A DNA stretch of 64,000 nt from Albidovulum sediminicola (GTDB taxonomy: Bacteria > Pseudomonadota > Alphaproteobacteria > Rhodobacterales > Rhodobacteraceae). Of the stretch, positions 10,511 through 49,003 are shown one piece after another. The DNA lies in assembly GCF_025751575.1 (NCBI RefSeq), contig NZ_JAOWLA010000019.1, forward strand, positions 1 through 64,000, read 5' to 3'. A model generated the notes under the pieces. The model was not told where the DNA came from, made no database searches, and was given only the letters and a program-made list of their open reading frames with translations. The number at the start of each line of letters is the position of its first letter. Position 1 is the stretch's first letter. The translations under genes and the position numbers were made by a program.

Positions 10511-10603
10511 TACCCAACCGGGCGCCGGGTCGACCGGCGCCCGCCCCTTTCTGCGCGTCTGACCCCGCGCGGTCGCGCGACATATCCAAAAGGATTGCCC
10601 CCC

Positions 10604-11485: not shown

Positions 11486-11492
11486 GTTGATC

Positions 11493-11514
11493 TCGCAAGA
11501 TTGTTGCGACTTTT
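11493..11514 (+). terminator. Inverted repeat with short T-run after the HAD gene
   Basis: Perfect 6-bp arms TCGCAA/TTGCGA (11493-11498, 11504-11509) with loop GATTG, followed by CTTTT (11510-11514). It is plausible as a weak terminator; it could also be an operator for the MaoC gene 90 bases downstream. Confidence 0.4.
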
Positions 11515-11605
11515 CGGCAAGGGGTGAAAATAAATTACCGACAGGATTGCCCCAAGCGGGCAATCCGTGCTATGCCGCATCGCAGCAACCTTACCGGGAT
11601 TCGCG

Positions 11606-12052
11606 ATGATGCTTGATAATTTCCCCCGCGGCACAATCTGCATCGAGGATCTGGAGATCGGGATGATCCGTTATCTCCGCAAGGAAGTGACCGACCGCGA
11701 CATCGAGATGTTCGCGGAGGTCTCGACCGACCGCAATCCGGTGCACCTGGACGACGAATACGCCCGCGACACGATCTTCGAGGGCCGGATCGCGCATGGG
11801 ATGCTGACCGCCGGGCTGATCTCGGCCGTGATCGGCGAACAGCTTCCCGGCCACGGCACGGTCTACCTTGGCCAAAGCCTCAAGTTCATGGCCCCGGTGC
11901 GGCCGGGCGACGTGGTCTATGCCGAGGTGAAAGTGACGGCGATCGACCACGCGCGGCGCCGTGTGACCCTTGAAACCCACTGCGCGGTGGGCGATACGGT
12001 TGTGCTGAAGGGCGAGGCGCTGGTTCTGGCGCCAAGCCGCAAGTTCGACTGA
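11606..12052 (+). CDS. MaoC family (R)-specific enoyl-CoA hydratase-like protein
   Basis: A 148-residue hot-dog-fold protein. The hydratase-2 motif is clear: STDRNPVHLDDEYA (catalytic D-x-x-x-x-H) followed by FEGRIAHGMLTAGLISAVIG. Such enzymes hydrate trans-2-enoyl-CoA to (R)-3-hydroxyacyl-CoA, feeding polyhydroxyalkanoate or fatty-acid pathways. The exact chain-length preference is not visible. Two adjacent ATGs (11606 and 11609) are possible; the earlier is listed. The 120 bases upstream include an AT-rich stretch (GAAAATAAATTA) that could hold its promoter. ribF follows 32 bases after the stop. Confidence 0.88.
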   Translation: MMLDNFPRGTICIEDLEIGMIRYLRKEVTDRDIEMFAEVSTDRNPVHLDDEYARDTIFEGRIAHGMLTAGLISAVIGEQLPGHGTVYLGQSLKFMAPVRPGDVVYAEVKVTAIDHARRRVTLETHCAVGDTVVLKGEALVLAPSRKFD

Positions 12053-12084
12053 TATCCGGCGGGCCGCCCGCCAGACGGGGGCCG

Positions 12085-13011
12085 ATGCGGACGCATACTC
12101 ACTGGACGACGCTTTCCGCCAGCGACCGGGGCGCTTCGGTCGCTATGGGCAATTTCGACGGCGTGCACCTTGGCCATCAGTCGGTGATCGCCCAGGCGCA
12201 GCGCCCGGGCGCGGCCCTTGGCATCGTCACTTTCGAACCCCATCCGCGTCAGTTCTTCGCACCCAAAGCGCCGCCGTTCCGCCTGATGAACGCCGAGGCG
12301 CGCAGTCACCGGCTGGAAAAGCTGGGGGTCGAACAGCTTTACGTCCTGCCCTTCGATGCCACGCTGGCCGTGATGGAGGCCGAAGGCTTCGTCCGTGACG
12401 TTCTGGTCGCGGGACTGGGCGTTTCCCATGTCACCGTTGGGGCCGACTTCTGCTTCGGCCGCGGCCGCAAGGGGACGGCCGAAACGCTTCGGACGCTGGG
12501 CGCGGACCTCGGGTTTGGCGTGACCATTGCCGATCTTGTGGCCATCGAGGGGGTCGAAATCTCCTCGACCGCGATTCGCACCGCGCTGAGCGAGGGGCGC
12601 CCGCGCGACGCCGCCGGGATGCTGGGCCACTGGCACCGGATCGAGGGTGAGGTTCTGCACGGCGACAAGCGCGGCAAGGGTCTGGGCTTCCCGACGGCAA
12701 ACATGGGGGTCGATGGGCTCCACCTGCCCCGGCTCGGCGTCTATGCGGTCAAGGTCGACGTGCTGACGGGGCCCCATGCGGGCAGCTACATCGGCGCGTC
12801 GAGCCTTGGCGTCCGGCCGATGTTCGGGGAAAACCAGCCGAACCTCGAAACCTTCCTCTTCGACTTCGAAGGCGACCTTTACGGTCAGCACCTGTCGGTC
12901 GCGCTCATCGACTATCTCAGGCCGGAGATGAAGTTCGACGGGCTCGACGCCTTGATCGCGCAGATGAACGCGGACTGCGACCGCGCCCGCGCGATCCTGG
13001 CCGACGCCTGA
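12085..13011 (+). CDS. ribF: Bifunctional riboflavin kinase / FAD synthetase
   Basis: A 308-residue RibF that makes FMN and then FAD from riboflavin. The N-terminal adenylyltransferase half (about residues 1-180) shows MGNFDGVHLGHQSV, FEPHPRQFFAP and EISSTAIRTALSEGRP. The C-terminal kinase half shows GDKRGKGLGFPTANM, LGVYAVKV and FLFDFEGDLYGQ. Length is normal. ATG 12085 gives the usual short N-terminus (MRTHTHW). It is likely co-transcribed with the MaoC gene upstream. No FMN riboswitch is seen in the short upstream gap. Confidence 0.96.
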   Translation: MRTHTHWTTLSASDRGASVAMGNFDGVHLGHQSVIAQAQRPGAALGIVTFEPHPRQFFAPKAPPFRLMNAEARSHRLEKLGVEQLYVLPFDATLAVMEAEGFVRDVLVAGLGVSHVTVGADFCFGRGRKGTAETLRTLGADLGFGVTIADLVAIEGVEISSTAIRTALSEGRPRDAAGMLGHWHRIEGEVLHGDKRGKGLGFPTANMGVDGLHLPRLGVYAVKVDVLTGPHAGSYIGASSLGVRPMFGENQPNLETFLFDFEGDLYGQHLSVALIDYLRPEMKFDGLDALIAQMNADCDRARAILADA

Positions 13012-13080
13012 GCCCTTCCCGTCATCGCCCGCCGCTTCGGGCCTTCCCTTCCCTGCGGCCTTCTGCCTATCTTGCCGCCC

Positions 13081-13545
13081 ATGACCACGCACCGCCCCAC
13101 CCCACGCCTGCGACCCGAGTTCTGGCGGCTTCCGCTCAACAGCCTCACCGCCGAGGAGTGGGAGGCGCTTTGCGACGGATGCGGCAAGTGCTGCCTCAAC
13201 AAGCTTGAAGACGCCGAGACAGGCGAGATCCTGTTCACCCGGGTCGCCTGCCGGCTGCTGGACGGAGAAACCTGCCGCTGCGGCCAATATGAGAACCGCA
13301 AGACCTTCGTGCCCGAATGCGTCGTGCTGACGCCGAAGACCCTGAAGGACAGCGCCTACTGGATGCCCTCGACCTGCGCCTACCGCTTGCTGGCCGAGGG
13401 CAAGCCGCTGCCCGACTGGCACCCGCTTCTGACCGGCGACCCCGACAGCGTCCATGACGCCGGTATGTCGGTCCGGGGCTGGACCGTGCCCGAGTTCGAG
13501 GTGGACGAAGAGGATTGGGAAGACCACGTCATCGAGGACCTGTGA
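13081..13545 (+). CDS. YcgN family cysteine-cluster protein (UPF0260)
   Basis: A 154-residue cytoplasmic protein with the family's cysteine pattern: CDGCGKCCLNK near residues 36-46, a further CRLLDGETCRCGQY, then CVVLTP and STCAYR. The arrangement suggests a bound metal or iron-sulfur cluster, as proposed for the CxxCxxCC superfamily. The biological role is unknown. A TTG codon opens the frame at 13072, but ATG 13081 is the natural start. The stop shares one base with the threonine aldolase start (TGATG), implying coupling. Confidence 0.9.
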   Translation: MTTHRPTPRLRPEFWRLPLNSLTAEEWEALCDGCGKCCLNKLEDAETGEILFTRVACRLLDGETCRCGQYENRKTFVPECVVLTPKTLKDSAYWMPSTCAYRLLAEGKPLPDWHPLLTGDPDSVHDAGMSVRGWTVPEFEVDEEDWEDHVIEDL

Positions 13546-14597
13546 TGGAATTCAGATCGGACAACAACGCGGGCACGTCGCCCGTGATTCTGGACGCGGT
13601 CGTGGCCTGCAACGCCGGGCCCGCAGCATCCTATGGCAACGACCCGATCATGGACCGCGTGCGTGACCGCATCCGCACCCTGTTCGAGGCGCCGGACGCG
13701 GAGGTGGCCCTTGTGGCCACCGGCACCGCGGCCAATGCGCTGGCGCTGGCCACCTTCTGCCCGCCCTGGGGCGCCATCTACGCCTTCGAAGCGGCCCACG
13801 CCGAGATGGACGAATGCGGCGCGCCCGAATTCTTCACCGGCGGCGCCAAGATCAGGCTTGTTCCCGGCCAGGACGGCAAAATCACACCCGAGGCGCTTGC
13901 CGCGAAGATCGGGGAGACGGGCCAAGGCGACGTGCATTCAGTACAGCGGGGCATGGTCACGCTGACCAACATCACCGAGGCAGGCACCGTCTATTCGGCG
14001 GAGGAGGTCGCGGCGCTGGCCGGGGTCGCCAAGCGCTTCGGACTGCCGGTGCATCTTGATGGCGCGCGTTTCGCCAATGCAATCGTCGCCACCGGCGCGA
14101 CGCCCGCCGAGATGACCTGGAAAGCCGGGGTGGACGTGCTGTCCTTCGGCGGCACCAAGAACGGCTGCATGGGGGTGGAGGCGGTCGTGATCTTCGACCC
14201 GGCCAGGGCCTGGGAACTCGCGCTGCGCCGCAAGCGCGCGGGGCATCTGTTCTCCAAGCACCGCTATCTGTCCGCACAGATGGGCGCCTATCTGGACGGC
14301 GGGCTCTGGCTGACGCTGGCACGCCACGCCAACGACATGGCCGCACAGCTGGAGGCGGGCCTGCGGACCCTGCCGGAGGTCACCTTCGCCAGTCCGCGCG
14401 GCGCGAACATGCAGTTCGTCACCATGCCCCGCCGCCTGCACCAGCGTGCGATGGAGGCGGGGGCGAACTACTACCTCATGCCCCACGGCACCCCGTTGGA
14501 CGGCGACCCGGACGAACGGGTGCTCTGCCGGCTCGTCACCTCCTGGGCGACGACCGAGGCCGAGGTCGATGGGCTGATCGAGGCGCTGCGCGCCTAG
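13545..14597 (+). CDS. ltaE: Low-specificity L-threonine aldolase
   Basis: A 350-residue fold-type I PLP enzyme that cleaves L-threonine (and allo-threonine) to glycine and acetaldehyde. Signatures are the N-terminal FRSDNNAG, the phosphate-cup ATGTAANALAL, EAGTVYS, PVHLDGARFANA with the PLP-interacting Asp, and the Schiff-base lysine in LSFGGTKNGCMG. Length fits. It begins on the last base of the upstream YcgN stop. Its TAG stop lies inside a CTAG that is also the stop of the convergent hydrolase. Confidence 0.93.
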   Translation: MEFRSDNNAGTSPVILDAVVACNAGPAASYGNDPIMDRVRDRIRTLFEAPDAEVALVATGTAANALALATFCPPWGAIYAFEAAHAEMDECGAPEFFTGGAKIRLVPGQDGKITPEALAAKIGETGQGDVHSVQRGMVTLTNITEAGTVYSAEEVAALAGVAKRFGLPVHLDGARFANAIVATGATPAEMTWKAGVDVLSFGGTKNGCMGVEAVVIFDPARAWELALRRKRAGHLFSKHRYLSAQMGAYLDGGLWLTLARHANDMAAQLEAGLRTLPEVTFASPRGANMQFVTMPRRLHQRAMEAGANYYLMPHGTPLDGDPDERVLCRLVTSWATTEAEVDGLIEALRA

Positions 14598-15394
14598 GCC
14601 CGGTCCAGGTTCACGGCGATCAGACCGGCGACTTCCTTGGGGTGCGTGATCGGCAGCATATGCGATGCGCCGGGAACGGTGGCGATGCCCACGTCCTGCA
14701 TGCGCGCCGCCAGCGCCTCGGCAATGGCCGAGATGATGGCGGGGGAACGTTCGCCCTGGATCATCAGCACCGGCATGTCCAGGCTTTCCAACCCGTCGGG
14801 CCTGAGGACGCGACCGCTGTCGTCGGCAAGTGCGGGGTCACTTGCGGGGATCATGCCGATCCGGTCCACCAGCGCGCTGCGGCTTTCGGCGTTCAGCCGG
14901 GTCCAGTCGACGCCCGTTCCCCAGAGACTGGTGAAGGCGCGCGCGGCCTCTTCCGGCCGGCCTTCGGCCATCGCCGCCCGGAATGGGGCGATGTCCGCCT
15001 GATACTCGGCCCAGGCGGGCGTTCCCTGGGCAGCGGCGAACAGGACCGGTTCGATCAGCGTCAGGGTCCGGAATGCCTCCGGCGCCGCGATCGCCAGCCT
15101 CAGCGCCGTCACCGCCCCGAAGGAATGGCCGATCAGATCCACCGGCCGGTCGATGAAACTGGCCGCGATTTCAGCGCAGAGCCGAGGATAATCCCCCTGC
15201 CCGCTCCAGTCGTCCGACTTGCCATGGCCGGGCAGGTCGAAGGCGGTCAGGGTGATCCGCTCTGCCAGCGGCACCATGACCCCCGCCCAGGCACCGGAAT
15301 GGGCCAGCGCGCAGTGGATGCCAAGGGCGGGTCGCTCTCCCGCGCCCATCACACGCCAAAAGGTGCGATGGCCGGCACGTATCCCCTCCGGCAT
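14594..15394 (-). CDS. Alpha/beta-fold hydrolase
   Basis: A 266-residue cytoplasmic hydrolase. ALGIHCALAHSGAW forms the oxyanion region, FDLPGHGKSD is typical of the fold, DLIGHSFGAVTALRLA is the nucleophile elbow with catalytic Ser, MPVLMIQGERSP precedes the acid, and PGASHMLPITHP carries the catalytic His. The substrate is unknown. It starts on the stop of the DsbA-fold isomerase upstream (TGATG), so the two are co-translated, and it shares a CTAG stop with ltaE on the other strand. Confidence 0.87.
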   Translation of the reverse strand: MPEGIRAGHRTFWRVMGAGERPALGIHCALAHSGAWAGVMVPLAERITLTAFDLPGHGKSDDWSGQGDYPRLCAEIAASFIDRPVDLIGHSFGAVTALRLAIAAPEAFRTLTLIEPVLFAAAQGTPAWAEYQADIAPFRAAMAEGRPEEAARAFTSLWGTGVDWTRLNAESRSALVDRIGMIPASDPALADDSGRVLRPDGLESLDMPVLMIQGERSPAIISAIAEALAARMQDVGIATVPGASHMLPITHPKEVAGLIAVNLDRA

Positions 15395-16005
15395 CAGAGT
15401 TTTCCGGCCAGGTGCAGGTCCAGATCCTCCAGCCGGTCCTGCCCCCAGAACCGTTCCCCGTCATCGAGGACGTAGAAGGGGGAGCCGAAAACCCCTGCGG
15501 CGACCGCGTCCTCCAGATTGCGGGCGTAGGTTTCCGCGCCCATCAGCATGCCGGAAAACGCCAAACCCGGATCGAAGCCGTAGGCCTTCAGAAGGTCGGT
15601 GACGACCTCATCCTCGGCGATGTTGCGCTCTTCCGCCCAACAGGCGCGCAGGACCCCATGCACCAGCGCCCCCAGATCGCCCGCGCCCCCTTTCGCCACT
15701 GCCGCCTGCGCGGCGATGATCGCGTAGGCAGAGGGCGCGGCGTTCGCGGGGAAGAACATGGGCCGCAGGTTGATGGGCATCCCCGTTTTCGCCGCCTGGC
15801 GGCGGAGCTCTTGCAGGCGGTACGCCTTGCGGCTTTCGTGCCGGTCGGCCAAGCCCGTTCCCCCGGTGCGCGCGAAGAGCGCGACGATGTCGACCGGCTT
15901 GTAGGTGATCGTGGCGCCATGGCGCGCGGCGATGTCCTCAAGCCGGGTTCCAGCCAGGTAGGTGAACGGCGAAATCGTCGAGAAATAGTAGTCGATCTGC
16001 GCCAC
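15394..16005 (-). CDS. 2-hydroxychromene-2-carboxylate isomerase-like (DsbA/kappa-GST fold)
   Basis: A 203-residue thioredoxin-fold protein. The N-terminal YYFSTISPFTYLAG has the S-P-x-x-Y motif of kappa-class GST and HCCA isomerases, where the Ser activates glutathione. MFFPANAAPSAYA and the C-terminal GVFGSPFYVLDDGERFWGQDRLE are also characteristic. The family acts in naphthalene-type degradation, but no such pathway is nearby, so the substrate is open. The frame opens at ATG 16026, but AGAGGAG lies 9 bases before GTG 16005, which I take as the start. Confidence 0.85.
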   Translation of the reverse strand: MAQIDYYFSTISPFTYLAGTRLEDIAARHGATITYKPVDIVALFARTGGTGLADRHESRKAYRLQELRRQAAKTGMPINLRPMFFPANAAPSAYAIIAAQAAVAKGGAGDLGALVHGVLRACWAEERNIAEDEVVTDLLKAYGFDPGLAFSGMLMGAETYARNLEDAVAAGVFGSPFYVLDDGERFWGQDRLEDLDLHLAGKL

Positions 16006-16120
16006 GTCGCGCCGCTCCTCTCGCATGGGTTTGCGGGCAGGCTAGCCCGGTGGTAAGCGGTGTGCAACGTCACGAATCTGTCACCTGACCCTCCTCGCCC
16101 CTCTCGACAAGGAACCGATC

Positions 16121-17140
16121 ATGCCGTCCATGACCGAGCCGAAGCTGATTTCCGGCAACTCCAACCGCCCGCTCGCCAATTCCATCGCGCGGCGCATGTC
16201 GATGCACAGGGGCGTCAATGTCGGACTGGTCGATGCACGGGTCGAACGTTTCAACGACCAGGAAATCTTCGTCGAGGTGTTCGAGAACGTCCGTGGCGAG
16301 GATATGTTCATCATCCAGTCGACCTCCAACCCGGCGAACGACAACCTGATGGAACTGCTGATCATGTCGGACGCGCTGCGCCGGTCCTCTGCCGCGCGCA
16401 TCACCGCCGTGATCCCCTACTTCGGCTACGCCCGCCAGGATCGCCGCGCCAAGGCGCGCACGCCGATCTCCGCCAAGCTCGTCGCAAACCTGCTGACCGA
16501 GGCGGGCGTGGAGCGGGTTCTGACGCTGGACCTGCACGCAGCGCAGATCCAGGGCTTCTTCGACATCCCTGTCGACAACCTCTACGCCTCGCCGATCTTC
16601 GCGCTCGATATCGAACACCACTTCAAGGGCAAGATGGGCGACATCATGATCGTCTCGCCCGACGTGGGCGGCGTGGCGCGCGCGCGCGAACTGGCCAAGC
16701 GGATCAACGCGCCGCTGGCCATCGTCGACAAGCGCCGCGAAAAGCCGGGCGAGGTCGCCGAGATGACGGTGATCGGCAACGTCACCGGCAAGACCTGCAT
16801 CATCGTGGACGACATCTGCGACACCGCTGGCACGCTTTGCAAGGCGGCCGAGGTGCTGATGCAGAACGGCGCGGCAGAAGTGCATGCCTATATCACCCAT
16901 GGCGTGATGTCGGGCCCGGCTGTGGAACGGGTTCAGGCCTCGGTGATGAAAAGCCTTGTCCTGACCGACTCGATCGAACCGACCGACCCGGTGCGCAAGG
17001 CCAAGAACATCCGCATCGTTCCGACCGCGCCGATGTTCGCGCAGGCGATCCTGAACATCTGGTCCGGCACCTCGGTCTCCTCGCTGTTTGAGACGGAAAC
17101 GCTCGGCCCGATCTACGAAGGCATGTATTCGCGCGGCTGA
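16121..17140 (+). CDS. prs: Ribose-phosphate pyrophosphokinase (PRPP synthetase)
   Basis: A 339-residue class I enzyme that makes PRPP from ribose 5-phosphate and ATP for purine, pyrimidine, histidine and NAD synthesis. It shows [13 protein letters not shown], the ATP/catalytic loop [52 protein letters not shown], and the PRPP loop [22 protein letters not shown] 16121 has AAGGA about 11 bases upstream; a second ATG lies three codons on. It is divergent from the isomerase gene. Its stop is one base from the convergent lipoprotein stop. Confidence 0.96.
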
Positions 17141-17141
17141 C

Positions 17142-17582
17142 CTAGCCGCTCAGCGCCGCCAGTTCCGCGCTCAGCGCCTTCGTCTCCGACAGCAGCGCCT
17201 GGAGATCGGCCAGCCGCTTGGCGTCTGAGGTGGACGCGGGCTTGGCGGTCAGCACCCGGTTCACTCGCGCGCGCGTCGCGTCATCCAGATTGCGCGCCTG
17301 GTCGCGTTGCTGAAGCAGCCGGAAACGGGCCTTTGCCAGTTCGTTCTCGGTGGCCGAGATCTGCGCGGCAAGCGACGCCTGTTCGGCCTTGAGCGCAGCA
17401 TTGCGCTGTCCGGCCTCATCAACGGCCTGCTCGCGTTCGGCCACGCGCTGGTCATAAGCGCCCGAGCGGATGTTCTGCACGCCGGTGAAGAAGCCGCCGT
17501 CGCCAGGATCGGTCGTGGTTTCGACGCATCCCGCGAGGGCCAGTCCGGCAATCAGGCCCAGGTGGCGCACCGGGGGCCTCAC
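17142..17582 (-). CDS. Small coiled-coil lipoprotein
   Basis: A 146-residue protein with a lipoprotein signal peptide: the lipobox LALAGC places the lipidated Cys at residue 19. The mature part is helical and charged (about residues 40-145, repeated A/L/E/R-rich heptads, for example AVDEAGQRNAALKAEQASLAAQI), predicting a long coiled coil anchored to a membrane. No known family is recognised. The GTG start overlaps the stop of the upstream lipoprotein gene (GTGA). It is the last gene of the lectin-caspase cluster and probably a structural partner of the upstream products. Confidence 0.72.
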   Translation of the reverse strand: MRPPVRHLGLIAGLALAGCVETTTDPGDGGFFTGVQNIRSGAYDQRVAEREQAVDEAGQRNAALKAEQASLAAQISATENELAKARFRLLQQRDQARNLDDATRARVNRVLTAKPASTSDAKRLADLQALLSETKALSAELAALSG

Positions 17583-18262
17583 AGGCTGCCTGCCAGGTCG
17601 TCGGCGATGGCGCGCATCTCGGCAATCTGGCTCGACAGCGCCGAAAGCTCCGGATCGATCCGCGAACCGCCGCCATCGGCGGGGACGAGCCCGCGCGCCT
17701 CGGTGAATTCCGCCTGACGGTTGGTCGCGCCTTCGATCGCACGCTGCATCTCTGACAGGTTCGCCTGCGCCTGGGCGACCCCGGCATCCAGCGCCGCGGG
17801 GTCGCCGCCGGTGGAGGCCTGGGCGCGCAGGCTGTCAAGCTCGGCCTTCTGTGCGGCCAGAACGCCCTGCATCACCGAAATCGTGGCCGCGACCTCTTCC
17901 GAGTTCCGGTCGAGATCGGACTTCATCGCCTCAAGCCGCCGCTCCTTGAAGAAATACTTGCGCTGGATGAAGGCGACATAGCTCCCGGCGGAGGCGCCGA
18001 CCGCGGTTCCGATCTGGATGCCTTTCTTGCGGTTCGTGCCGAGCGTCATCGCGATGCCCCCGCCAGCCGCGGCCCCGGCCAACGCCCCTTCAAGGATGGT
18101 TTTCTGCATGGCCGTGGCAACGCGCGAGAGTTCCGCATCCGCGGCGACGGCGGGCTGCGCGACGGAGCTTTCGGGCGCGGGCGCACCGCCGCAGGCGCCA
18201 AGCGCCAACGCCGCCGAAAGGCAGACGGCCGTCAGCCCTGAGCGAGAAAATCCGTGAGCCAT
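17579..18262 (-). CDS. Lipoprotein with glycine-zipper segment and coiled coil
   Basis: A 227-residue lipoprotein: lipobox LALGAC, lipidated Cys at residue 24. About residues 59-98 form a small-residue-rich hydrophobic segment (LEGALAGAAAGGGIAMTLG, then IQIGTAVGASAGSYVAF) like glycine-zipper proteins that insert into membranes. A charged coiled coil follows (about 100-190). The start lies 31 bases inside the end of the caspase-like gene; no later Met would keep the signal peptide, so the overlap is real. The function is unknown; pairing with a caspase-like protein suggests an envelope-bound substrate, anchor or effector. Confidence 0.75.
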   Translation of the reverse strand: MAHGFSRSGLTAVCLSAALALGACGGAPAPESSVAQPAVAADAELSRVATAMQKTILEGALAGAAAGGGIAMTLGTNRKKGIQIGTAVGASAGSYVAFIQRKYFFKERRLEAMKSDLDRNSEEVAATISVMQGVLAAQKAELDSLRAQASTGGDPAALDAGVAQAQANLSEMQRAIEGATNRQAEFTEARGLVPADGGGSRIDPELSALSSQIAEMRAIADDLAGSL

Positions 18263-19770
18263 GAATAGGTTCCCTTCCTTGATGGGTCCGCCGACTGGCG
18301 AACATGTTTCAAGAAAAGCGCCGCATCCGCGCGCAACTTTCCATCAACGCCCGCCTCGGTCCCGGCGGCGAGGAGGTCCTCGGTCGCCCCATCAGGCACG
18401 AACAGGGCGGCGCGTGTCAATATTCGGTTGTAGTACTCGCGCGACTGGTCAAGCCGCACCAGAACCCTCTGCCGCGACCGTCGAATGTCCTCGAAATCGC
18501 GCTCGGCCTGCGCCAGCACCGGGGCGGCGGCATCCGGGTCCCGGGTCGCGATCTCGCGGATCTCGGTCAAGGCGTTCTCAGACAGCCGGGCCAGCCGGTC
18601 AATGCCGCGCAGCGCCACCAGATCGGTTCGCAGCCGCTGCGCCGTGGTAGCCGCCAAGGCCATCGAGGCGCGCGTCGCATCCTGGTAAAGCGCGGCGGGC
18701 CGCAGCTCGGCCTTTGCGTCTTGCTGAGCGGCATAGCGGGCGGCAGCGGCCTCTACCCCGCCCGGCAGACCGAGCGCCGCCAGCGCCGCCTCAAGGCGCG
18801 CCCGTGGCTCAGCCCGAAAGGCATCGGGCAGCGACGCGGGCACGGATCCGGCGCCGTCGAGGTCCGCAAGCCGCGCCTGCGCGGTTTCGGCGAATGTCCC
18901 GGCCGGATACTGGTTGACATAATCGCGCAGCGCACGCGCGTCGCCGCCCTCCGCCACGGCCCAAAGCGCCAGCTCGGCGGCATCGGCGTCCGTCGGGATC
19001 TCGTCCCCTTTCACATCGGCCAGGACATGTTCCCCGATCAGGGCCTCTTCAACCCAAGGCACCTGCTGGCCGAAGGTTTCCACCACCACATCTTGCCGCA
19101 CGCGCCCAAGCATCAGGCGCACGTCGAGCCCCGGTGTCGCGATGTTGTTCAAAAGCGCCTTTGTGAACACGCTGTTCCGCCCGGTCCCGTCGAAAGCCAC
19201 GTTGCCTGGATCGGTCGCATAGGCGATCAGCAATCCCGCCCCCCCGCCGGTGCGGACAAGGCCCTTGGCCGCGTTCTCGCCCGTCCCGAAAGGGGAATCC
19301 CGGCAGGCGTCGAGCAGGATCAGCCCCGCGCCCGGCCGGGCGCGTTCCAGGACGGTCCTCACCTCCCTCATCGGGAGTGAGGCGCGAACCATCCCGGCCG
19401 TGTCGAGCGCGCCAAAACCCGTCCCGATCAGCAGGTTATCGCCAGCGTATTGGACGCCGTGCCCGGCGTAGAAGAAAAGCGCGACCTCCGCCCCGCTTGC
19501 CGCAACCTCGAACCGCGCCAGGGCGTCGCGCATCCCCGCCAGGTCCTGGTCCGTCGCCTCGATCACCCGGAACCCCAGCCCCCCAAGCGCCGCGCCAAGC
19601 GCCAGCGCGTCGTTCACGGGGTTGGGAAGATCCAGATCGTCCAGCGCATAGTCGGAGTTGCCGATGAGGAGCGCGACACGTTCAGCGGCCGCCGCTGGCC
19701 ACGCGACAAGGGCCGCGGCCAAGGCCGCGCAACAGGTGCGATAGCTGAGGGATTTTCCGAGCCCGCTCAT
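18232..19770 (-). CDS. Secreted caspase-like (peptidase C14) protein
   Basis: A 512-residue protein with a signal peptide (residues about 10-29, ending AWPAAAA), so export is predicted. The caspase-like p20 domain follows (about 31-260): RVALLIGNSDY, catalytic His104 in FFYAGHGVQYAG and catalytic Cys156 in LILLDACRDSPF, both intact, then ATDPGNVAFDG and NSVFTKALL. The C-terminal 250 residues are helical and alanine-rich, ending in a region that tracks arginine-rich helices, with no family recognised. ATG 19770 is chosen for the signal peptide. It lies 45 bases downstream of the H-type lectin gene and overlaps the next lipoprotein gene. Confidence 0.88.
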   Translation of the reverse strand: MSGLGKSLSYRTCCAALAAALVAWPAAAAERVALLIGNSDYALDDLDLPNPVNDALALGAALGGLGFRVIEATDQDLAGMRDALARFEVAASGAEVALFFYAGHGVQYAGDNLLIGTGFGALDTAGMVRASLPMREVRTVLERARPGAGLILLDACRDSPFGTGENAAKGLVRTGGGAGLLIAYATDPGNVAFDGTGRNSVFTKALLNNIATPGLDVRLMLGRVRQDVVVETFGQQVPWVEEALIGEHVLADVKGDEIPTDADAAELALWAVAEGGDARALRDYVNQYPAGTFAETAQARLADLDGAGSVPASLPDAFRAEPRARLEAALAALGLPGGVEAAAARYAAQQDAKAELRPAALYQDATRASMALAATTAQRLRTDLVALRGIDRLARLSENALTEIREIATRDPDAAAPVLAQAERDFEDIRRSRQRVLVRLDQSREYYNRILTRAALFVPDGATEDLLAAGTEAGVDGKLRADAALFLKHVRQSADPSRKGTYSWLTDFLAQG

Positions 19771-42316: not shown

Positions 42317-43654
42317 TTAGCGCCCCGCGTAGATCTGGGCGATGCGGGCCACCGCCGCCTCGGGGCTCATCTCCTCGCTGTCGCCGGTGCGGCGCGAGGT
42401 GACTTCGACCACGCCATTGGCCAGACCGCGCGGGCCGACGGTGATGCGCCAGGGAAGGCCGATCAGGTCCATCGTCGCGAACTTCGCGCCCGCGCGCTCG
42501 TCGCGGTCGTCGTAAAGCGCCTCCAGCCCCTGGGCGCGCAGCGCCTTGTAAAGCCCCTCGCAGGCCGCGTCCGCGGCCCCGTCGCCCTGCTTGAGGTTGA
42601 CGATCCCGACCGGGAAGGGCGTGACGCCCTCGGGCCAGATGATGCCCTTGTCGTCGTGGCTCGCCTCGATGATCGCGCCCAAAAGGCGGCTGACGCCGAT
42701 CCCGTGGCTGCCCATCTCGACCGGCACGCGGCTGCCGTCCTTGGTCACGACGGTCGCGCCCATGGCCTCTGAATACTTGGTGCCGAAGTAGAAGATCTGC
42801 CCGACCTCGATGCCGCGCCCGACCTTGCGATGCGCCTCCGGGACCTGGTCGAACACCGCTTCGTCATGGGTTTCGTCAGTGCGCGCGTAAAGGGTCGTGA
42901 ACTCCTCGCAGACCTTCGCGACCTGATCGCGGTCGTCGTAGTCGATATCGCGGGCGCCAAGCTTCAACCCGGTCACGCGGTCGTCGTAGAAGACCTCCGA
43001 CTCGCCCGTCTGCGCCAGCACCAGGAATTCATGCGTGTTGTCGCCGCCGATGGGGCCTGAGGCCGCGCGCATCGGGATCGCGGTCAGGCCCATGCGTTCG
43101 TAGGTGCGCAGGTAGCTGACCATGTGGCGGTTGTAGGCGTGCAGCGCCGCATCCCGGTCCACATCGAAGTTGTAGCCGTCCTTCATCAGGAACTCGCGCC
43201 CGCGCATCACGCCGAAGCGCGGGCGAACCTCGTCGCGGAACTTCCACTGGATGTGGTAAAGCGTCAGCGGCAGGTCCTTGTAGGAGGACACGTGGCTGCG
43301 GAAGATGTCGGTGATCATCTCCTCGTTCGTCGGACCGTAGAGCATGTCGCGCCCGTGGCGATCCCTGATGCGCAGCATCTCTTCGCCGTAATCGTCGTAC
43401 CGGCCGCTTTCGCGCCAGAGGTCGGCGGGCTGCAGCGTCGGCATCAAGAGCGGGATATGGCCCGCGCGCACCTGTTCCTGGTGCACGATCTCCTCGATCC
43501 GGCGCAGGACGCGGAAGCCCAGTGGCAGCCAGGAATAGATGCCCGCCGCCTGCTGCTTGATCATGCCCGCGCGCAGCATGTAGCGGTGGCTGACGATCTG
43601 CGCCTCGGCGGGGTTTTCCTTGAGGACGGGGAGGAAATAGCGGGAAAGGCGCAT
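42317..43654 (-). CDS. proS: Prolyl-tRNA synthetase, short alphaproteobacterial type
   Basis: A 445-residue class II synthetase that charges tRNA-Pro. It shows [37 protein letters not shown], class II motif 2 ([22 protein letters not shown], read across the loop), [16 protein letters not shown], and the anticodon-binding region [15 protein letters not shown]. At 445 residues it lacks the about 180-residue editing (INS) domain of E. coli ProS, as usual in this group. ATG 43654 is preferred; the frame is open upstream. Confidence 0.96.
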
Positions 43655-43691
43655 GAACGGCTCGCATCCTGTGGCTTCGGTTAGCCAAGGG

Positions 43692-43719
43692 ATTATGCGA
43701 AAGCGCTCACGCAGGCAAG
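43692..43719 (-). promoter_or_regulatory. Putative sigma-70 promoter of proS
   Basis: Minus-strand CTTGCC (43714-43719), 16-base spacer, CATAAT (43692-43697), 37 bases before the proS ATG. Confidence 0.5.
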
Positions 43720-43760
43720 GCGGCCACCTTCCGCCGGATCGCGAAGACTTCGGCGACGCG

Positions 43761-45011
43761 CTAGGCGGCGGTATCGCCAAGGGCCCGCGTCACGTCCCGC
43801 GCCTGTCCGCCCTCCAGCAGAATCTCGCGCGGCGGTTCGTGGCTGATGAAGTGGAGCGGGCTGGCGGTCAGCCCGTAGGCGCCGCTGTTGTGAACCGCGA
43901 TCACGTCGCCGACGGCGAGTTCCGGAAGGTGCACCCCGACGCCGATCCGATCCAGCGGCGTACAGAGCGGCCCGACAAGGTTGACCTTGCGGGCGGGCTC
44001 GCCGCCGCCGACCCGGTGCATCCGGTAGTTCCGGTGGATCACCATGCCGAAGTTTCCCGACGCTGGCAGATGGTTGTTCATCCCCCCGTCACAGATCGCG
44101 AAACGCGTCCCGCGCGAGTCCTTGATGGTGGTCACGCCGGTCAGGAAGTATCCCGCCTCGCCGACCAGATAACGGCCGAGTTCCAGTACCAGCCGGGCCT
44201 TACGGAACCTCGGCTGCGCGCGGAATGCGTCGAGCTCCGCCGCGATGCCACCCGCCGTGGCCGCCAGATCAAGCGGCGTGTCGTTCTCGAAATAGGGCAC
44301 GCCAAGGCCCGACCCGAAGACCAGCTTTTCGGGATGGATGTCGTGGCGCGCGCAGATTTCAGAGAAGAGCTGCATGAAGATCCGGTAGTTTTCGCAGATC
44401 GCGCCCGGGACCAGGCATTGCGTCCCCGAATAGATGTGCAGCCCGATCAGACGCAGGTTCCTGAGCGCGAGAATGCGCGGAAGCTCCTCGTGGATCGTCT
44501 CGCAGTCGATCCCGAAGGCGCTTGGCCGGCCCGCCATCTGGTCGCCGAACCCCTTCGGCACCCGGTCGGGCGCGATCCGTACCAGGATGTGCTGCACACG
44601 GCCGGCCTCGGCCGCGATCCGGTCCGCGCGGATCGCCTCGTCCAGGGATTCGACGATCAGCTCGCCCAAGCCGCCCTCGACGGCCTCGCGCAGTTCGGCG
44701 TCGCGCTTGCCGGGGCCGGTAAAGCTCATCCGATCGGCGGTCCACCCCCCCCTCAGCCCCAGCCGCATTTCACCGATGGAGGAGATGTCGAGCGTGTCGA
44801 TCCGGGTCGAAAGCCAGCGCAGAAGCTCGGGATTGGGGTTGCTCTTGGCCGCGTAGCTCAACGCAAAGCGATCGCCGAAGCCGGCCTTCAACTCGGCGAT
44901 GCGCTGCTCGATCCTGTCCGTGACATACACGTAGGACGGGGTCCCGAACTCGGCAGCCACCCGGGCAAGGGCGGCATCATCTGCGCAGGCTTCCAACATT
45001 CTACCGTTCAC
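43761..45011 (-). CDS. PLP-dependent decarboxylase, exosortase-A-associated type
   Basis: A 416-residue alanine-racemase-fold decarboxylase (DapDC/ODC family). The PLP lysine is K56 in [21 protein letters not shown], the phosphate loop [23 protein letters not shown], and a C-terminal block with [28 protein letters not shown] (catalytic Cys) and [12 protein letters not shown] are visible. This block resembles the exosortase-A-system decarboxylases (TIGR03099) rather than lysA. It follows the carrier protein gene by 3 bases. I infer a carrier-bound amino acid as substrate, by analogy with BtrK. GTG 45011 is used; ATG 44999 is possible. Confidence 0.82.
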
Positions 45012-45014
45012 GAC

Positions 45015-45251
45015 CTATCCGACGCTTTCGACATATCTTTCGATCCGCGCGGGCGTGTCGAAATTGTCGAGCGTCACGTCTTCCGCGCGCACCTGGATAC
45101 CGCACTTCTGTTCGATGAACATGATGAGGCCGACCATCAGCACGGAATCCAGCAGCCCAGAGGAAAAAAGCTCCGTCTCCGGCTCGATCGGCTCGTCGGG
45201 TTCGAGCATGCGGGTCAGGTAATCGACGAGTTCATCCATTCGCAGGGTCAT
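45015..45251 (-). CDS. Acyl/aminoacyl carrier protein
   Basis: A 78-residue free-standing carrier protein. Ser36 in SSGLLDSVLMVGLI is the expected 4'-phosphopantetheine site. ELVDYLTRML and the C-terminal VTLDNFDTPARIERYV complete a four-helix fold. It differs from fatty-acid AcpP, whose site is DSLD/E, and fits specialised carriers encoded with AMP-ligases. It lies between the ligase (63 bases upstream) and the decarboxylase (3 bases downstream), implying that the ligase loads it and the decarboxylase acts on the loaded form. Confidence 0.88.
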   Translation of the reverse strand: MTLRMDELVDYLTRMLEPDEPIEPETELFSSGLLDSVLMVGLIMFIEQKCGIQVRAEDVTLDNFDTPARIERYVESVG

Positions 45252-45314
45252 TGGCGGGCACCCGCAGTCTCATTCATATGCACGTCCTGTCCTTCCACCT
45301 GACAATTCATCGGC

Positions 45315-46874
45315 CTAGTCCTGTTGGCTCCGGCTGATCCTGACGATCTCGGGGCGCGCGAGCTTGCCGCTCGCCGTGCGCGGCATGGCGGCCGTCCATA
45401 GCCGGATCTGCTTGGGCACCATGTAGCTGGGCATGGTGCGGAAACAATGCTCGATCAGTCGATCCTTGTCGTAGCCCTCAAGCGGCGTGACCGCAACGTG
45501 GACCGCGTGACCAAGATCCCCGTCCTCGACACCGTAGGCGACGGCCTCGGCGACGATGCCGCTGCTGTAGATGTGATCCTCGATCTCATCGGGGCTGGTG
45601 CGGAAGCCGCTCGTCTTGATCATTGCGTCGTTGCGCCCAATGAACCAGAGATCGCCATCCTCATCGACCCTGACGATGTCACCGCTGTAGACCACCTTCT
45701 CGTCTCCGATCAGGTGGCGCAGCTCCGGGCAGGTCCGGATCTTTTCGTTGGTCAGGTCCGGGCGGCCCCAGTAGCCCATGCTGACCAAGGGGCCACGATG
45801 GACAAGCTCGCCCTGCTCCCCCGGTCCGGCGATTCCGACGCCTTCCTTGATGACAAAGACCTCGGCACCGGGGATCGCCTTGCCGATGGAGCCTTTCTTG
45901 GCCTGAAAAAGCTCCGGCGCGAGGAAGGTCGAGCGGAACGACTCCGTCAGGCCGTACATGAGGTAGATGTCGGCGCCCGGGAACACGCCGGGCATCAGAT
46001 CCAGGATGTCGGGCGGAATCCGGCCGCCGGTGTTCGTGACCCGCCGCAGCGAAGGCAATGCGACGGGATTGTCGCGCAGGAACCGGACGATCGGATTTAT
46101 CAGCGGCGGCACCCCGGCAAGGCCCGTCACCTCGTGCCGGACCATCGTCCGCACGATCTCCGCCGGCATCATCACCGGCTGGTGCACCACCGTCCCGCCA
46201 AGCAGGAGCATCGTCGTCAACTGGTTCAGCCCCGCGTCGAAACTGTAGACGAGAATGCTGATCAGGCGGTCGTCCTCCGACAGCCGCAGATAGCGGGCGA
46301 CCGAGCGCGCGCCCGCGATGATGTTGCGGTGGGACAGCATGACACCCTTCGGCCGCCCCGTGGAGCCGGAGGTGTAAATGATCATCGCAAGGTCGGTGTC
46401 GAGCACGGGAACCTCGCGCGCGGTCGCCTCCGGCAGGTCCCGCCAGTCGTCGAACCCCTCCGCGTCTTTCTTGAGCTCAAGCGCAAGGGCGCGGCGAACC
46501 CTGGCGGGAAATCCCGCCTTGGCCATTGCGGCGGCCGCGCGGCCGTCCGTCAGGACCATTACCGCGCCGCAGTCCTCGGCGACGTAGCCAAGCTGGTCAA
46601 GCGTCCATTGAGCGTTCACATTCACGATGACACCGCCCACCTTCGCCACGGCCAGCATGGCCACCACTTCCTCGATGCTCTTGCGAAGATGCACGATGAC
46701 GCGGTCGCCGCGCGCGATGCCTTGGCCCGCCAGATACGCGGCAACGCGGTCGACTTCGGCATGAAGCGTGGCGTAGTCGACGGAGCGCTTGGGATCGACA
46801 AGCGCCGTCTTGCCGGGACGAACCGCGAGGTTGTCCGACAGAAGTTGGTAAAAGGTCGTCGTCAGAGCGTTCAC
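45315..46874 (-). CDS. AMP-forming acyl/aminoacyl ligase, exosortase-A-associated type
   Basis: A 519-residue ANL-superfamily enzyme. Adenylation motifs: MIIYTSGSTGRPKGVMLSH (A3), YLMYGLTESFRST (A5), ELVHRGPLVSMGYW, YSGDIVRVDEDG (A7), FIGRNDAMIKTSGFRTSP (A8) and PRTASGKLARPEI (A10 lysine). TNTGGRIPP and SIGKAIPGAEV resemble the exosortase-A-associated ligases (TIGR03098). It should activate a carboxylic or amino acid and load the ACP. GTG 46874 is chosen since GGGAGG lies 6 bases upstream; GTG 46901 would also be in frame and overlap the upstream stop. Confidence 0.85.
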   Translation of the reverse strand: MNALTTTFYQLLSDNLAVRPGKTALVDPKRSVDYATLHAEVDRVAAYLAGQGIARGDRVIVHLRKSIEEVVAMLAVAKVGGVIVNVNAQWTLDQLGYVAEDCGAVMVLTDGRAAAAMAKAGFPARVRRALALELKKDAEGFDDWRDLPEATAREVPVLDTDLAMIIYTSGSTGRPKGVMLSHRNIIAGARSVARYLRLSEDDRLISILVYSFDAGLNQLTTMLLLGGTVVHQPVMMPAEIVRTMVRHEVTGLAGVPPLINPIVRFLRDNPVALPSLRRVTNTGGRIPPDILDLMPGVFPGADIYLMYGLTESFRSTFLAPELFQAKKGSIGKAIPGAEVFVIKEGVGIAGPGEQGELVHRGPLVSMGYWGRPDLTNEKIRTCPELRHLIGDEKVVYSGDIVRVDEDGDLWFIGRNDAMIKTSGFRTSPDEIEDHIYSSGIVAEAVAYGVEDGDLGHAVHVAVTPLEGYDKDRLIEHCFRTMPSYMVPKQIRLWTAAMPRTASGKLARPEIVRISRSQQD

Positions 46875-46897
46875 GAAATGCCTCCCGGCGGGCCGGT

Positions 46898-47425
46898 TCA
46901 CGGCGAAGGGCGCGATGCCTTCATGGCTTTCATGGAAAGACTTGGATAGATCCGCGGCGGCGGGGCCTGGACGATGGAATCCGGCGGCACATCGGTAACG
47001 ACCACGGCGTTGGCGCCGATCCTCGACCGATCACCGATCGTGATAGGTCCGAGTATGGTCGCGTTGACGCCGATGAATACATCATCACCGATCCGTGGAA
47101 CGCCCCCGACCATGTTCGTGCCGATGGTCACATTATGCATGATTCCGCATCGATCCCCGATGACCACATCCGGATGAAGGGCCAGAAACCCTGACCCATG
47201 GATGATATGGAAATCCTCGCCGATGATCATCTCCGGGGGCAGCCAGATCTTGGTGATGTTGGCGACGAACATATGCGTGAGGCCGTAGACCTTCAGCAAA
47301 GCCCAACGCAATGCGGGATTGCCGAGGCTCAGCGCCCAGTGGCCGAAGCGGTAAGTGGTCAACGCGACGAATGCCGCCCCTTCGCCCCTGTGCCGTCGAT
47401 AATCCGCACGAAGAGTATCAAACAT
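46898..47425 (-). CDS. Left-handed beta-helix acyltransferase (CysE/serine acetyltransferase-like)
   Basis: A 175-residue hexapeptide-repeat protein. An N-terminal helical part (FDTLRADYRRHRGEGAAF, with YRFGHWALSLGNPALRW) precedes beta-helix turns: GEDFHIIHGSGFLALHPDVVIG, then CGIMHNVTIGTN, VGGVPRIGDDVFIGVNATI, LGPITIGDRSRIGANAVV and VTDVPPDSIVQAPPPRI. The His in FHIIHGSGF and HNVTIG match CysE catalytic positions, but the protein is shorter than CysE. It probably transfers an acetyl group to a sugar or amino acid of an extracellular product. It is the first gene of the ligase-carrier-decarboxylase operon. Confidence 0.84.
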   Translation of the reverse strand: MFDTLRADYRRHRGEGAAFVALTTYRFGHWALSLGNPALRWALLKVYGLTHMFVANITKIWLPPEMIIGEDFHIIHGSGFLALHPDVVIGDRCGIMHNVTIGTNMVGGVPRIGDDVFIGVNATILGPITIGDRSRIGANAVVVTDVPPDSIVQAPPPRIYPSLSMKAMKASRPSP

Positions 47426-48043
47426 CCGCTACTTCCACCCAAAAATGCCCGCTCTCCTTCAGCAAGGCGACGGTACGCAATCGTGACCAACTATGTTTCA
47501 GATTTCTGTTTTCCGGTGTCAACGCAGATCGGGGGGCGCCCAGACGGGACAAGACCCGCAGGGGGACGCACCCTTGCGCCGCCCCCAGTGCAGCGGATAC
47601 CTTAGACTTTGGGTCGGACCCCTACAAGATTATGAAAAATATATAAAAAATACCCAACACCACAGCGAGCCAGCTAATTTTGCCATGCCCGGAAGAGACC
47701 GTTCCGGCGCCACTGAGAGACAAGAAGCAACCTTGGCGACGCGAAACACCGCGACATCAGCCCCGATAGACGATGGCGGGACAGCCGCCGTATTTGTGCG
47801 CATACCGAAACAATGCGATGCGCCATTCCCGGATTTTCCAGCAACGTCTTGCCCCGGCGCTGTGATTGCCGGAAAACGGCCTTGTGCCACCTGCACCGAA
47901 GAGGGTGAAGCGATCATGGCGGGACGACCCGCATCCCGAACTGCCATCACGGCCTTGCGCGCCGTGGCGCGTCCCGCCGCCATCGGGCGGCATCGGGGCC
48001 TTTGCCGCCACGCCGCGCCCGAACCGCGACCGGGGGCCGCGCG
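47426..48043. other. 618-base gene-free region, locally AT-rich
   Basis: No convincing gene is present: open frames here lack family features and plausible starts. The region separates the minus-strand acyltransferase operon from the plus-strand sulfotransferase-like gene, so it should hold both promoters. Bases 47630-47665 are strikingly AT-rich for this genome (ATGAAAAATATATAAAAAAT), and 47477-47515 is moderately so. This contrast suggests a regulatory hub or the edge of acquired DNA. Confidence 0.6.
47494..47522 (-). promoter_or_regulatory. Putative promoter of the acyltransferase-ligase-ACP-decarboxylase operon
   Basis: A perfect -35 hexamer TTGACA (minus strand, 47517-47522) lies 17 bases from a weak -10 GAAACA (47494-47499); CATAGT is four bases further on. 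It is about 70 bases before the first gene of the operon. Confidence 0.35.
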
Positions 48044-48823
48044 ATGATCTGGAGCCCCTATGTCCAGCGCCGCCTCAGGCAGACGCTCGGCGAGTTCCGA
48101 CGTCTCGGGAAGCCCAAGGTGCAGGTGATCGGGGAACGTTGCTCCGGCACCAACTTCACCGAGGCGTTGATCCTGCAGAGCCTGCCGGTCCGCGATTGCC
48201 AGGCCTTCGGCTGGAAACACGGGTTTCCCAGCTTCATCGCGGCGCCGGACGATGTCGTCTTCGTGGCCGTCTACCGCGAGGTCTTCGGCTGGCTGCTCAG
48301 CATGTACGAAAAGCCCTGGCACGCGGAACCCGACCTCTACGATCTGTCCTTTTCGAACTTCATCCGGGCCGAGTGGCGCACTTTCCTCGACAAGAAGTTC
48401 ATGTTGGCGACCGATGATCCGTTGAACGGGCAGATCCTCCAGCAGGACAGGCACCCCTTGACCGGCAAGCCGCCAAAGAACCTGCTCGAACTGCGCCGCT
48501 GGAAGATGGAGGGGCTGCTGGGTCTCTCCGAACGCGGTGTGAAGGTGGTTCACTGGGCGCATGACCGGATCGTCGCCAACCCCGGCGGCGTCGTGCAGGA
48601 CGTCGCGCGCCTGCACGGACTGCCCGAACCGGCGGAGGTCTCGGTGCCGAAAGGGCGTTTTGGCTGGCCGTGGAACCGATTTGCGGACACCCCGGAGCGC
48701 AGGGTGAAGGAAATCTCCGCCGAGGATCGCGCCTTCATCCTCGCCAATCTCGACCTCGACCTCGAACGGCGGGCAGGGTTTAGCTACCCCTCCGTGGCGT
48801 CCGGGCGAGACGGGACCGCGTAA
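48044..48823 (+). CDS. Sulfotransferase-like P-loop protein
   Basis: A 259-residue protein. The N-terminal KVQVIGERCSGTNFTEALIL (residues about 25-44) has the shape of the PAPS 5'-phosphosulfate loop of sulfotransferases (R-x-G-T/S after a hydrophobic strand), with ERCSGTN in place of the commoner RSGTT. FVAVYREVFGWLLSMYEKPWHAE corresponds to the 3'-phosphate-binding region, where an Arg and Ser follow a strand. No signal peptide or membrane helix is seen. It may decorate a cell-surface polysaccharide, but that is inference from family and neighbourhood. ATG 48044 is one of two nearby starts. Confidence 0.65.
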   Translation: MIWSPYVQRRLRQTLGEFRRLGKPKVQVIGERCSGTNFTEALILQSLPVRDCQAFGWKHGFPSFIAAPDDVVFVAVYREVFGWLLSMYEKPWHAEPDLYDLSFSNFIRAEWRTFLDKKFMLATDDPLNGQILQQDRHPLTGKPPKNLLELRRWKMEGLLGLSERGVKVVHWAHDRIVANPGGVVQDVARLHGLPEPAEVSVPKGRFGWPWNRFADTPERRVKEISAEDRAFILANLDLDLERRAGFSYPSVASGRDGTA

Positions 48824-49003
48824 CCGCGGGCTGATCCGCCGGCGACGGGCGTCGGCCGCGACGCGGAGCGCCCTTCTTCGCGCCTCAAGCGCCGCATGGG
48901 CCACCCAACCGCGCTGCCCGGCGGCGCGGGCATCCTTGTCTGGGCCGAGTTGCGACTTGCGGCGCGCACGAGCTTCGGCCATGAGAGGGGAAAGGAGTGA
49001 CAG

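Follow-up and report, generated by a model that had tools for sequence, protein, structure and literature searches.

A four-gene operon around a free-standing carrier protein

This analysis concerns a four-gene operon of Albidovulum sediminicola (Rhodobacteraceae) on the minus strand of contig NZ_JAOWLA010000019.1, of which positions 1 to 64,000 were analysed; this whole stretch of 64,000 nucleotides is called the window. The genes encode an acyltransferase, an AMP-forming ligase, a carrier protein and a pyridoxal phosphate (PLP)-dependent decarboxylase. We think that, with about an even chance of being right, they can be read as a pathway in which an omega-aminoacyl group is made on a carrier protein and is destined for a polysaccharide of the cell surface. 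The open reading frames of the window agree with the initial annotation, which had described four such genes on the minus strand, including Ser36 of the carrier:

46898-47425, minus strand: acyltransferase, 175 aa, with a left-handed beta-helix (hexapeptide) and the serine-acetyltransferase fold; part of the CysE GDRHP loop is missing
45315-46901, minus strand: putative AMP-forming amino acid:carrier ligase, 528 aa from the first GTG; TIGR03098-like, below cut-off
45015-45251, minus strand: free-standing carrier protein of 78 aa that resembles DltC, below cut-off
43761-45011, minus strand: PLP-dependent decarboxylase of the Orn/DAP (diaminopimelate)/Arg family; BtrK/TIGR03099-like, below the TIGR03099 cut-off

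When the longest frames are taken, the genes are spaced by -4, 63 and 3 bases. The decarboxylase comprises 416 aa from a GTG or 412 from the ATG at 44999, and the GTG at 46874 is the more likely start of the ligase than the first GTG, because the N-terminus then equals that called in the nearest relative. Pfam assigns to the four proteins, in this order, hexapeptide repeats; AMP-binding and AMP-binding_C; PP-binding; and Orn_Arg_deC_N with Orn_DAP_Arg_deC.

Ligase, carrier and decarboxylase

The ligase has its best NCBIfam match in TIGR03098, with 518.5 bits as compared to 274.7 for the next, which is the best acyl-CoA ligase model, and the decarboxylase has its best match in TIGR03099, with 377.4 bits as compared to 235.5 for LysA, which is below the LysA cut-off of 297.9. 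The initial annotation had stated that both enzymes closely resemble these two exosortase-A-associated families, and it regarded hidden Markov model (HMM) scores favouring lysA or acyl-CoA synthetase families as a result that would speak against it. The scores favour neither of these, and the resemblance as such is borne out, but both curated cut-offs are missed (592.35 bits for TIGR03098 and 478.45 for TIGR03099). Four residues are relevant for the assignment of functions:

46236-46238, minus strand: Asp211 of the ligase (P0003), equivalent to VinN Asp230, the amine contact
45933-45935, minus strand: Arg312 of the ligase (P0003), equivalent to VinN Arg331, presumably the carboxylate contact
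45144-45146, minus strand: Ser36 of the carrier, in the motif GLLDSV, the expected phosphopantetheine site
44844-44846, minus strand: Lys56 of the decarboxylase (P0001), which we take to be the PLP-binding lysine

An alignment with VinN gave the ligase equivalents of both Asp230 and Arg331; in the VinN chain as printed, both pocket residues are shifted from these numbers by the same value, 16. According to excerpts of PMC11284099, the VinN-type enzyme group uses a conserved Asp to contact the substrate amine, and in vicenistatin biosynthesis VinN puts 3-methylaspartate on a carrier, after which VinO decarboxylates it. Related ligases carry the Asp in 71 of 72 cases, with a gap in the remaining one, and the Arg in all 72. 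In the window genome, none of the 7 other ligases that were read at the Arg331 place, out of 24 other matches, has an Arg there; one of the 7 (L005) has an Arg one place after this position. Both residues are also found in all 27 ligases that lie beside above-cut-off TIGR03099 genes (27 of these 29 loci held a ligase piece). The pocket fits an acidic amino acid, Asp or Glu, that would be activated on its side-chain carboxyl, because the Asp and Arg residues would hold the alpha-amino and alpha-carboxyl groups and leave the side-chain carboxyl for activation. These residues lend support to the sequence of events suggested initially, in which an amino acid is loaded on the carrier and then decarboxylated there.

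The carrier matches DltC with 38.6 bits, below the cut-off of 68, and its Asp35-Ser36 pair is retained in all 76 called carriers when counted by column. For the decarboxylase, the best match in the PDB is BtrK, in keeping with the parallel to butirosin drawn initially, with 230 bits over residues 11-405 of 416, so that the homology spans the whole chain; the best diaminopimelate decarboxylase reaches 148 bits. Lys is found at the position of Lys56 in all 74 relatives that cover this place (77 were called, 3 of them truncated). The decarboxylase and all 77 called relatives have the sequence GPLCT where the window genome's own LysA has GPVCETGD, and they thus lack the Cys-Glu motif of LysA, for which we assume a role in diaminopimelate recognition. 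The genome's LysA is encoded elsewhere and scores above cut-off with 465.9 bits, as does a separate CysE with 232.6 bits, and therefore the decarboxylase and the acyltransferase of the operon are probably not the housekeeping copies of these enzymes. An assignment of the decarboxylase as LysA was rejected on these grounds, that is the score below cut-off, the missing Cys-Glu motif and the presence of another LysA.

The acyltransferase

The acyltransferase remains below both cut-offs of the serine acetyltransferase models, with 94 bits for EpsC (cut-off 150) and 80.2 bits for CysE (cut-off 210.65). A structural model built from 40 sequences (mean predicted local distance difference test score, pLDDT, 92.9) matches serine acetyltransferases best, with Z up to 20.5, followed by the sugar acetyltransferases Pcryo_0619 (Z 13.9) and PerB (Z 12.8), the latter being a GDP-perosamine N-acetyltransferase. 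The DRH part of the CysE GDRHP loop is absent. The family has three invariant histidines of its own, His73, His84 and His97, each conserved in 40 of 40 sequences, and His76, which aligns with the CysE histidine, is His in 33 and Asn in 7 of the 40. As the DRH of the CysE loop is missing and other His residues are invariant in this family, the acceptor is probably not serine. A function as the CysE of this organism was discarded in view of the score and of the above-cut-off CysE found elsewhere.

Conservation of the operon and its association with GT61

A genome collection was scanned with six aligned decarboxylases, and of the 114 relatives that were found the best 80 were used. Genes in these loci were called with a home-made caller that misses some genes, and the counts are uncorrected calls unless stated; a tblastn search recovered a missed acyltransferase in L032, L040, L053, L055 and L092, and a missed family-61 glycosyltransferase (GT61) in L035 and L083. 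Among the 80 loci, the decarboxylase cluster was called in 77, the carrier in 76, the ligase in 72, the acyltransferase in 61 and GT61 in 58. The exact order acyltransferase-ligase-carrier-decarboxylase on one strand is found in 59 of the 80 loci, where the gaps have medians of -4, 12 and -4 bases, and a gene order that recurs to this extent is not due to chance. The remaining 21 loci have the order ligase-carrier-decarboxylase (7), carrier-decarboxylase-ligase (4) or another one (7), or have no called decarboxylase (3), and four of them are on contigs of at most 4 kb (L033, L037, L039, L090). Defluviimonas sp. WL0002 (L031), the nearest relative, has the four genes with 80-89% identity in the same order and at the same chromosomal site. 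Large replicons of Paracoccus and Neorhizobium carry the module, too. Within the 198 genomes of the window's family, eight have a decarboxylase match at E <= 1e-40, and among these eight the four-gene order was found in the window, G034 and G023.

The usual partner of the module is a GT61. It adjoins the complete loci in 52 of 59 cases, 51 times directly upstream and once directly downstream, while it lies elsewhere in one locus and was uncalled in six. The window genome has three GT61 matches, and one of these belongs to the subfamily found with the module: it is encoded at C1:3246-4283 beside a lepA-like gene (named by eye), unlinked to the operon, and its 346 aa are 43-51% identical to six module GT61s, including 51% to the module copy of L031. 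A search for this orphan GT61 in 18 chosen genomes gave a match of at least 43% identity in all 15 that have the four-gene module, the window's genome included, although most of these matches are the linked copy and the result thus partly restates the linkage. None of the three chosen genomes without the acyltransferase (G144, G010 and the genome of L034) gave a match at E <= 1e-20. Defluviimonas WL0002 possesses both an orthologue of the orphan GT61 (77% identity) and the linked copy (51%).

Further frequent neighbours in the 80 loci are a GDSL/CE2 esterase (31), a GT4 glycosyltransferase (17), a GMC oxidoreductase (16) and a sugar-phosphate transferase (14), which were assigned by Pfam on a single member of each; by eye, a further cluster (16) resembles a Wzc-type exporter protein. 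The GT61, the esterase, the GT4, the sugar-phosphate transferase and the Wzc-like protein, together with an exopolysaccharide cluster of Phaeobacter described below, point to a surface polysaccharide, and in this way the neighbours in relatives support the link to such a polymer that had been suggested from the window. A colitose- or perosamine-type sugar was considered as the acceptor and rejected, as the GDP-mannose-dehydratase cluster is present in 10 of the 59 complete loci and absent in 49; in L054, the sole locus that was run against NCBIfam for this cluster, only gmd is over its cut-off.

A probable sister lineage of the exosortase-A type

The initial annotation had called the operon a module without its exosortase, and its proposal to look for exosortase and PEP-CTERM genes in the whole genome was followed. 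The assembly is 99.98% complete and has no match to the exosortase model TIGR02602 at E <= 0.001, and the PEP-CTERM model TIGR02595 gave five matches at E <= 10, of which none is over cut-off and the best has an E-value of 1.01. TIGR03099 is matched at E <= 1e-80 by 107 of the 398 genomes examined from the phylum, and its cut-off is exceeded in 29 of them. The exosortase search covered 40 of the 107 genomes, 29 above and 11 below cut-off. Of the 29, 27 have a TIGR02602 match that exceeds the cut-off (exceptions G303 and G585), and none of the 11 does; among the 11, G075 has a weak match. Of 50 module genomes tested, 42 have no exosortase above cut-off and eight have one, six of them sphingomonads, while a weaker match is present in six more.

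For 112 decarboxylases, a quick maximum-likelihood tree with midpoint root, supported by Shimodaira-Hasegawa-like approximate likelihood ratio tests (SH-aLRT) only, separates the two types. The 29 exosortase-type sequences together with one further sequence, by its placement that of S. meliloti, form one clade (SH-aLRT 99), and 75 module-type sequences form another (99), which is joined to the former at 96. BtrK, the Streptomyces sequences and LysA are outside both clades, and the long branches (LysA, BtrK, Shinella and L158) are not reliably placed. The window decarboxylase lies outside the clade of the above-cut-off TIGR03099 sequences. From the separate clades and the 42 of 50 module genomes without an above-cut-off exosortase, the module looks like a sister lineage of the exosortase-A type and not like one that lost its exosortase, so that the initial wording is not supported if a loss was meant. 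Likewise, the view of a stand-alone pathway can be kept regarding the exosortase, but not in general, as most relatives lie beside a GT61 and the window genome keeps one elsewhere. Membership in an exosortase-A system was rejected because both TIGR cut-offs are missed, TIGR02602 is not matched, no PEP-CTERM match is over cut-off and the decarboxylase falls in a separate clade.

Flanking genes and further observations

Two features next to the operon are of interest:

43655-43760, minus strand: gap of 106 bp between the decarboxylase and proS; L031 carries a GT61 at this place, and the leader of proS is conserved
48044-48823, plus strand: divergent gene, labelled sulfotransferase-like by eye and belonging to no known family, present at the same site in L031; a possible satellite of the module

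The gene proS was named by eye and follows 106 bp downstream of the decarboxylase. On the other flank, again with labels given by eye, the divergent sulfotransferase-like gene is followed by genes for an AI-2E-type permease, a DnaA-like protein and a polyphosphate kinase. At the L031 site, the order is sulfotransferase-like gene (divergent), acyltransferase, ligase, carrier, decarboxylase, GT61 and proS. The lowest G+C content of the 32 bins of 2 kb is found at 46-48 kb (0.625); 44-46 kb has 0.638, and the other bins are at 0.638-0.712, which is a weak hint at an island. A proS cluster, named by eye, occurs in 16 of the 80 loci, and the module is located upstream of proS both in the window (42317-49000) and in L031, and downstream in Paracoccus pantotrophus (L017), which gives the impression that the proS region is a repeated insertion site.

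The sulfotransferase-like protein has the motif ERCSGTN and 83-84% identity to its counterpart at the L031 site, and it gave no match in Pfam, NCBIfam or PHROG. Its identity reaches about 45% with proteins from 58 plasmid records of Phaeobacter, of which the listed ones are annotated as hypothetical, and on one Phaeobacter plasmid a relative with 44% identity is located within an exopolysaccharide cluster. A structure model from two sequences reached a mean pLDDT of only 39.8. No RNA family was found at 43000-49000, the promoter scan gave no sigma-70-like promoter, and terminator-like sites were near chance (4 found as compared to 2.7 expected). The search against PHROGs yielded no named function. 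By eye, no polyketide synthase (PKS) or nonribosomal peptide synthetase (NRPS) genes were recognised in the window, and no aminoglycoside genes were recognised here.

Some relatives deserve separate mention. Closely similar decarboxylases (branches 0.05-0.06) occur in L037, L039, L043 and L109 on short contigs with labels such as Ramlibacter and Fimbriimonadaceae; the contigs with these two labels are likely mis-binned metagenome contigs, and we suspect that L109, a contig labelled Klebsiella pneumoniae, is also of doubtful origin. Distant relatives combine ligase, carrier and decarboxylase with an extra gene, namely a membrane-bound O-acyltransferase (MBOAT) cluster in L096, L105 and L106 (Pfam on L106 only), an acyl-CoA-dehydrogenase-like cluster in L103, L105 and L107, or a sulfotransferase cluster in L096, L106 and L109 (the latter two by Pfam on one member each), and these pairings are possibly a Dlt-like version. 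The Streptomyces plasmid L122 has at 9920-19188 a decarboxylase, a holo-ACP synthase, a VinN-like ligase and a carrier beside ectoine genes, a P450 and a ferredoxin. In Tritonibacter (L022, 9938-12373), the decarboxylase domain is part of an 811-aa protein annotated as acyl-CoA dehydrogenase, in a cluster with ketoacyl synthase III (KAS III) and carrier genes, and an 828-aa call in G075 (L026) is similar to this protein. Among viral contigs, 14 stretches matched the search pattern, and none of them encodes a relative of the decarboxylase.

Proposed pathway and alternative explanations

What is observed here is the gene content, its order and conservation, the sister relation to the exosortase-A lineage and the association with GT61, and a five-step pathway can be proposed from it. 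The carrier would receive its phosphopantetheine at the conserved Ser36. L-Asp or L-Glu would then be adenylated by the ligase on the side-chain carboxyl and loaded on the carrier, as the pocket residues suggest, and the PLP-dependent decarboxylase, by its homology to BtrK, would remove the alpha-carboxyl to yield a beta-alanyl- or gamma-aminobutyryl-carrier. In what is the weakest step of the proposal, the beta-helix acyltransferase may transfer the aminoacyl group, or a capped form of it, to a sugar. Finally, the GT61 that is encoded elsewhere in the genome may build this sugar into the polymer, for which the co-occurrence speaks. The substrate, the acceptor and the role of the acyltransferase we infer from the sequences.

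Several points weigh against this pathway. In the pocket of the window ligase, places 236 and 239 differ from VinN, and the pocket residues cannot distinguish Asp from Glu. The fold of the acyltransferase is nearest to serine acetyltransferases, so that it may use acetyl-CoA. The module is patchy, since a genome of the same genus, G010, has a decarboxylase match of just 33%. Of the six complete loci without a called GT61, tblastn finds one in only two, and it found none in L067, L069 and L087 (about 21 kb each) and in L043 (6.9 kb). In comparison with L031, a GT61 is missing between decarboxylase and proS in the window, and by eye no polysaccharide cluster was recognised in the window. In light of these two absences, the pathway could be decaying here.

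The most serious competitor starts from the fold of the beta-helix protein, which could use acetyl-CoA to N-acetylate the aminoacyl group after its decarboxylation, or a sugar, while another enzyme carries out the transfer to the polymer. The ranking of the fold matches, with sugar acetyltransferases behind the serine acetyltransferases, fits this idea, as does the prevalence of His at the CysE histidine place, but the Asn in 7 of 40 sequences and the family's own invariant histidines do not, and besides GT61 no other transferase is equally constant in the loci; we consider this explanation improbable, though worth keeping in view. Somewhat less probable still is that the operon is a decaying leftover, which lost its linked GT61 and no longer serves a polymer in this organism. 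The 106-bp gap and the lack of recognised polysaccharide genes beside the operon would be accounted for in this way, and since relatives as a rule have a linked GT61, its loss here is a simpler reading than a gain in L031. However, none of the four frames is disrupted and their conservation is good, and the orphan GT61 has been retained at 346 aa, with the 77% orthologue in a genome that also has the linked copy.

The module might also make a small diffusible metabolite, as in the butirosin and vicenistatin pathways, and its presence in polysaccharide loci would then be incidental. It is true that the nearest characterised enzymes are those of antibiotic pathways and that 13 of the 80 loci have a large NRPS-like ligase-domain gene (cluster 22, judged by size and ligase match), but the GT61 next to 52 of 59 complete loci and the absence of PKS or NRPS genes recognisable by eye in the window make this quite unlikely. 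We hold it to be very improbable indeed that the operon is a true exosortase-A accessory module whose exosortase lies outside the assembly or was recently lost: TIGR03098 and TIGR03099 are the best NCBIfam matches and 14 module genomes have an exosortase match, eight above cut-off and six weaker, but the near-complete assembly has no TIGR02602 match, the quick tree gives a sister clade and most of the module genomes tested lack an above-cut-off exosortase. We favour the aminoacylation of a surface polysaccharide from the carrier.

Comparison with known systems

Among the matches listed from an open-access library, no description of the module was found. The module resembles the exosortase-A type, whose models NCBI classifies only as hypothetical equivalogs ("hypoth_equivalog"), in the pairing of ligase and decarboxylase, the best HMM matches and the same pocket Asp and Arg. 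It differs in the scores below cut-off, the position in a sister clade and the lack of an exosortase, and its partners are the beta-helix acyltransferase and GT61.

With the butirosin pathway, in which the BtrJ ligase reportedly loads the carrier, it shares the ligase-carrier-decarboxylase logic, by which Glu becomes gamma-aminobutyrate (GABA) on the carrier, and BtrK is the closest PDB match of the decarboxylase. BtrK is, however, a long branch outside the module clade, and the window has no recognised aminoglycoside genes. Roles of BtrI and BtrK as carrier and decarboxylase in butirosin biosynthesis are given in excerpts of PMC7857480. The vicenistatin enzymes VinN, VinL and VinO follow the same three-part logic, from 3-methyl-Asp to 3-aminoisobutyrate on the carrier (excerpts of PMC11284099), and VinN has the pocket Asp and Arg, whereas places 236 and 239 differ, no polyketide synthase was recognised in the window, and the Streptomyces decarboxylases branch outside the module clade. 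CysE and EpsC share the acyltransferase fold, from which the operon's enzyme is set apart by both missed cut-offs, the absent DRH and the separate above-cut-off CysE.

The Dlt system for D-alanylation of teichoic acids likewise combines a free-standing ligase with a carrier to which that of the module is similar, but the module has a decarboxylase in addition. A search for the MBOAT protein (DltB) with PF03062 gave no match in the genome at E <= 0.001, and membership in a Dlt system was rejected for this reason. The proposed pathway provides a testable chemistry, in which carrier-bound Asp or Glu would become beta-alanine or GABA, for a gene set that was called in 61 of the 80 loci, mostly of alphaproteobacteria, and through the shared pocket residues the same assignment would extend to the exosortase-A models TIGR03098 and TIGR03099. 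Going further, we tentatively suggest, while thinking it rather less than evenly probable, that the module is a widespread alphaproteobacterial system which, aided by GT61, decorates a surface polysaccharide with beta-alanyl or GABA groups from the carrier, and that the exosortase-A ligase-decarboxylase pair makes the same kind of amine. If this is true, a cationic substituent on surface sugars is predicted, with consequences for charge, adhesion and the sensitivity to phages or peptides, and the module would be a Gram-negative counterpart of D-alanylation in adding positive charge to the cell surface.

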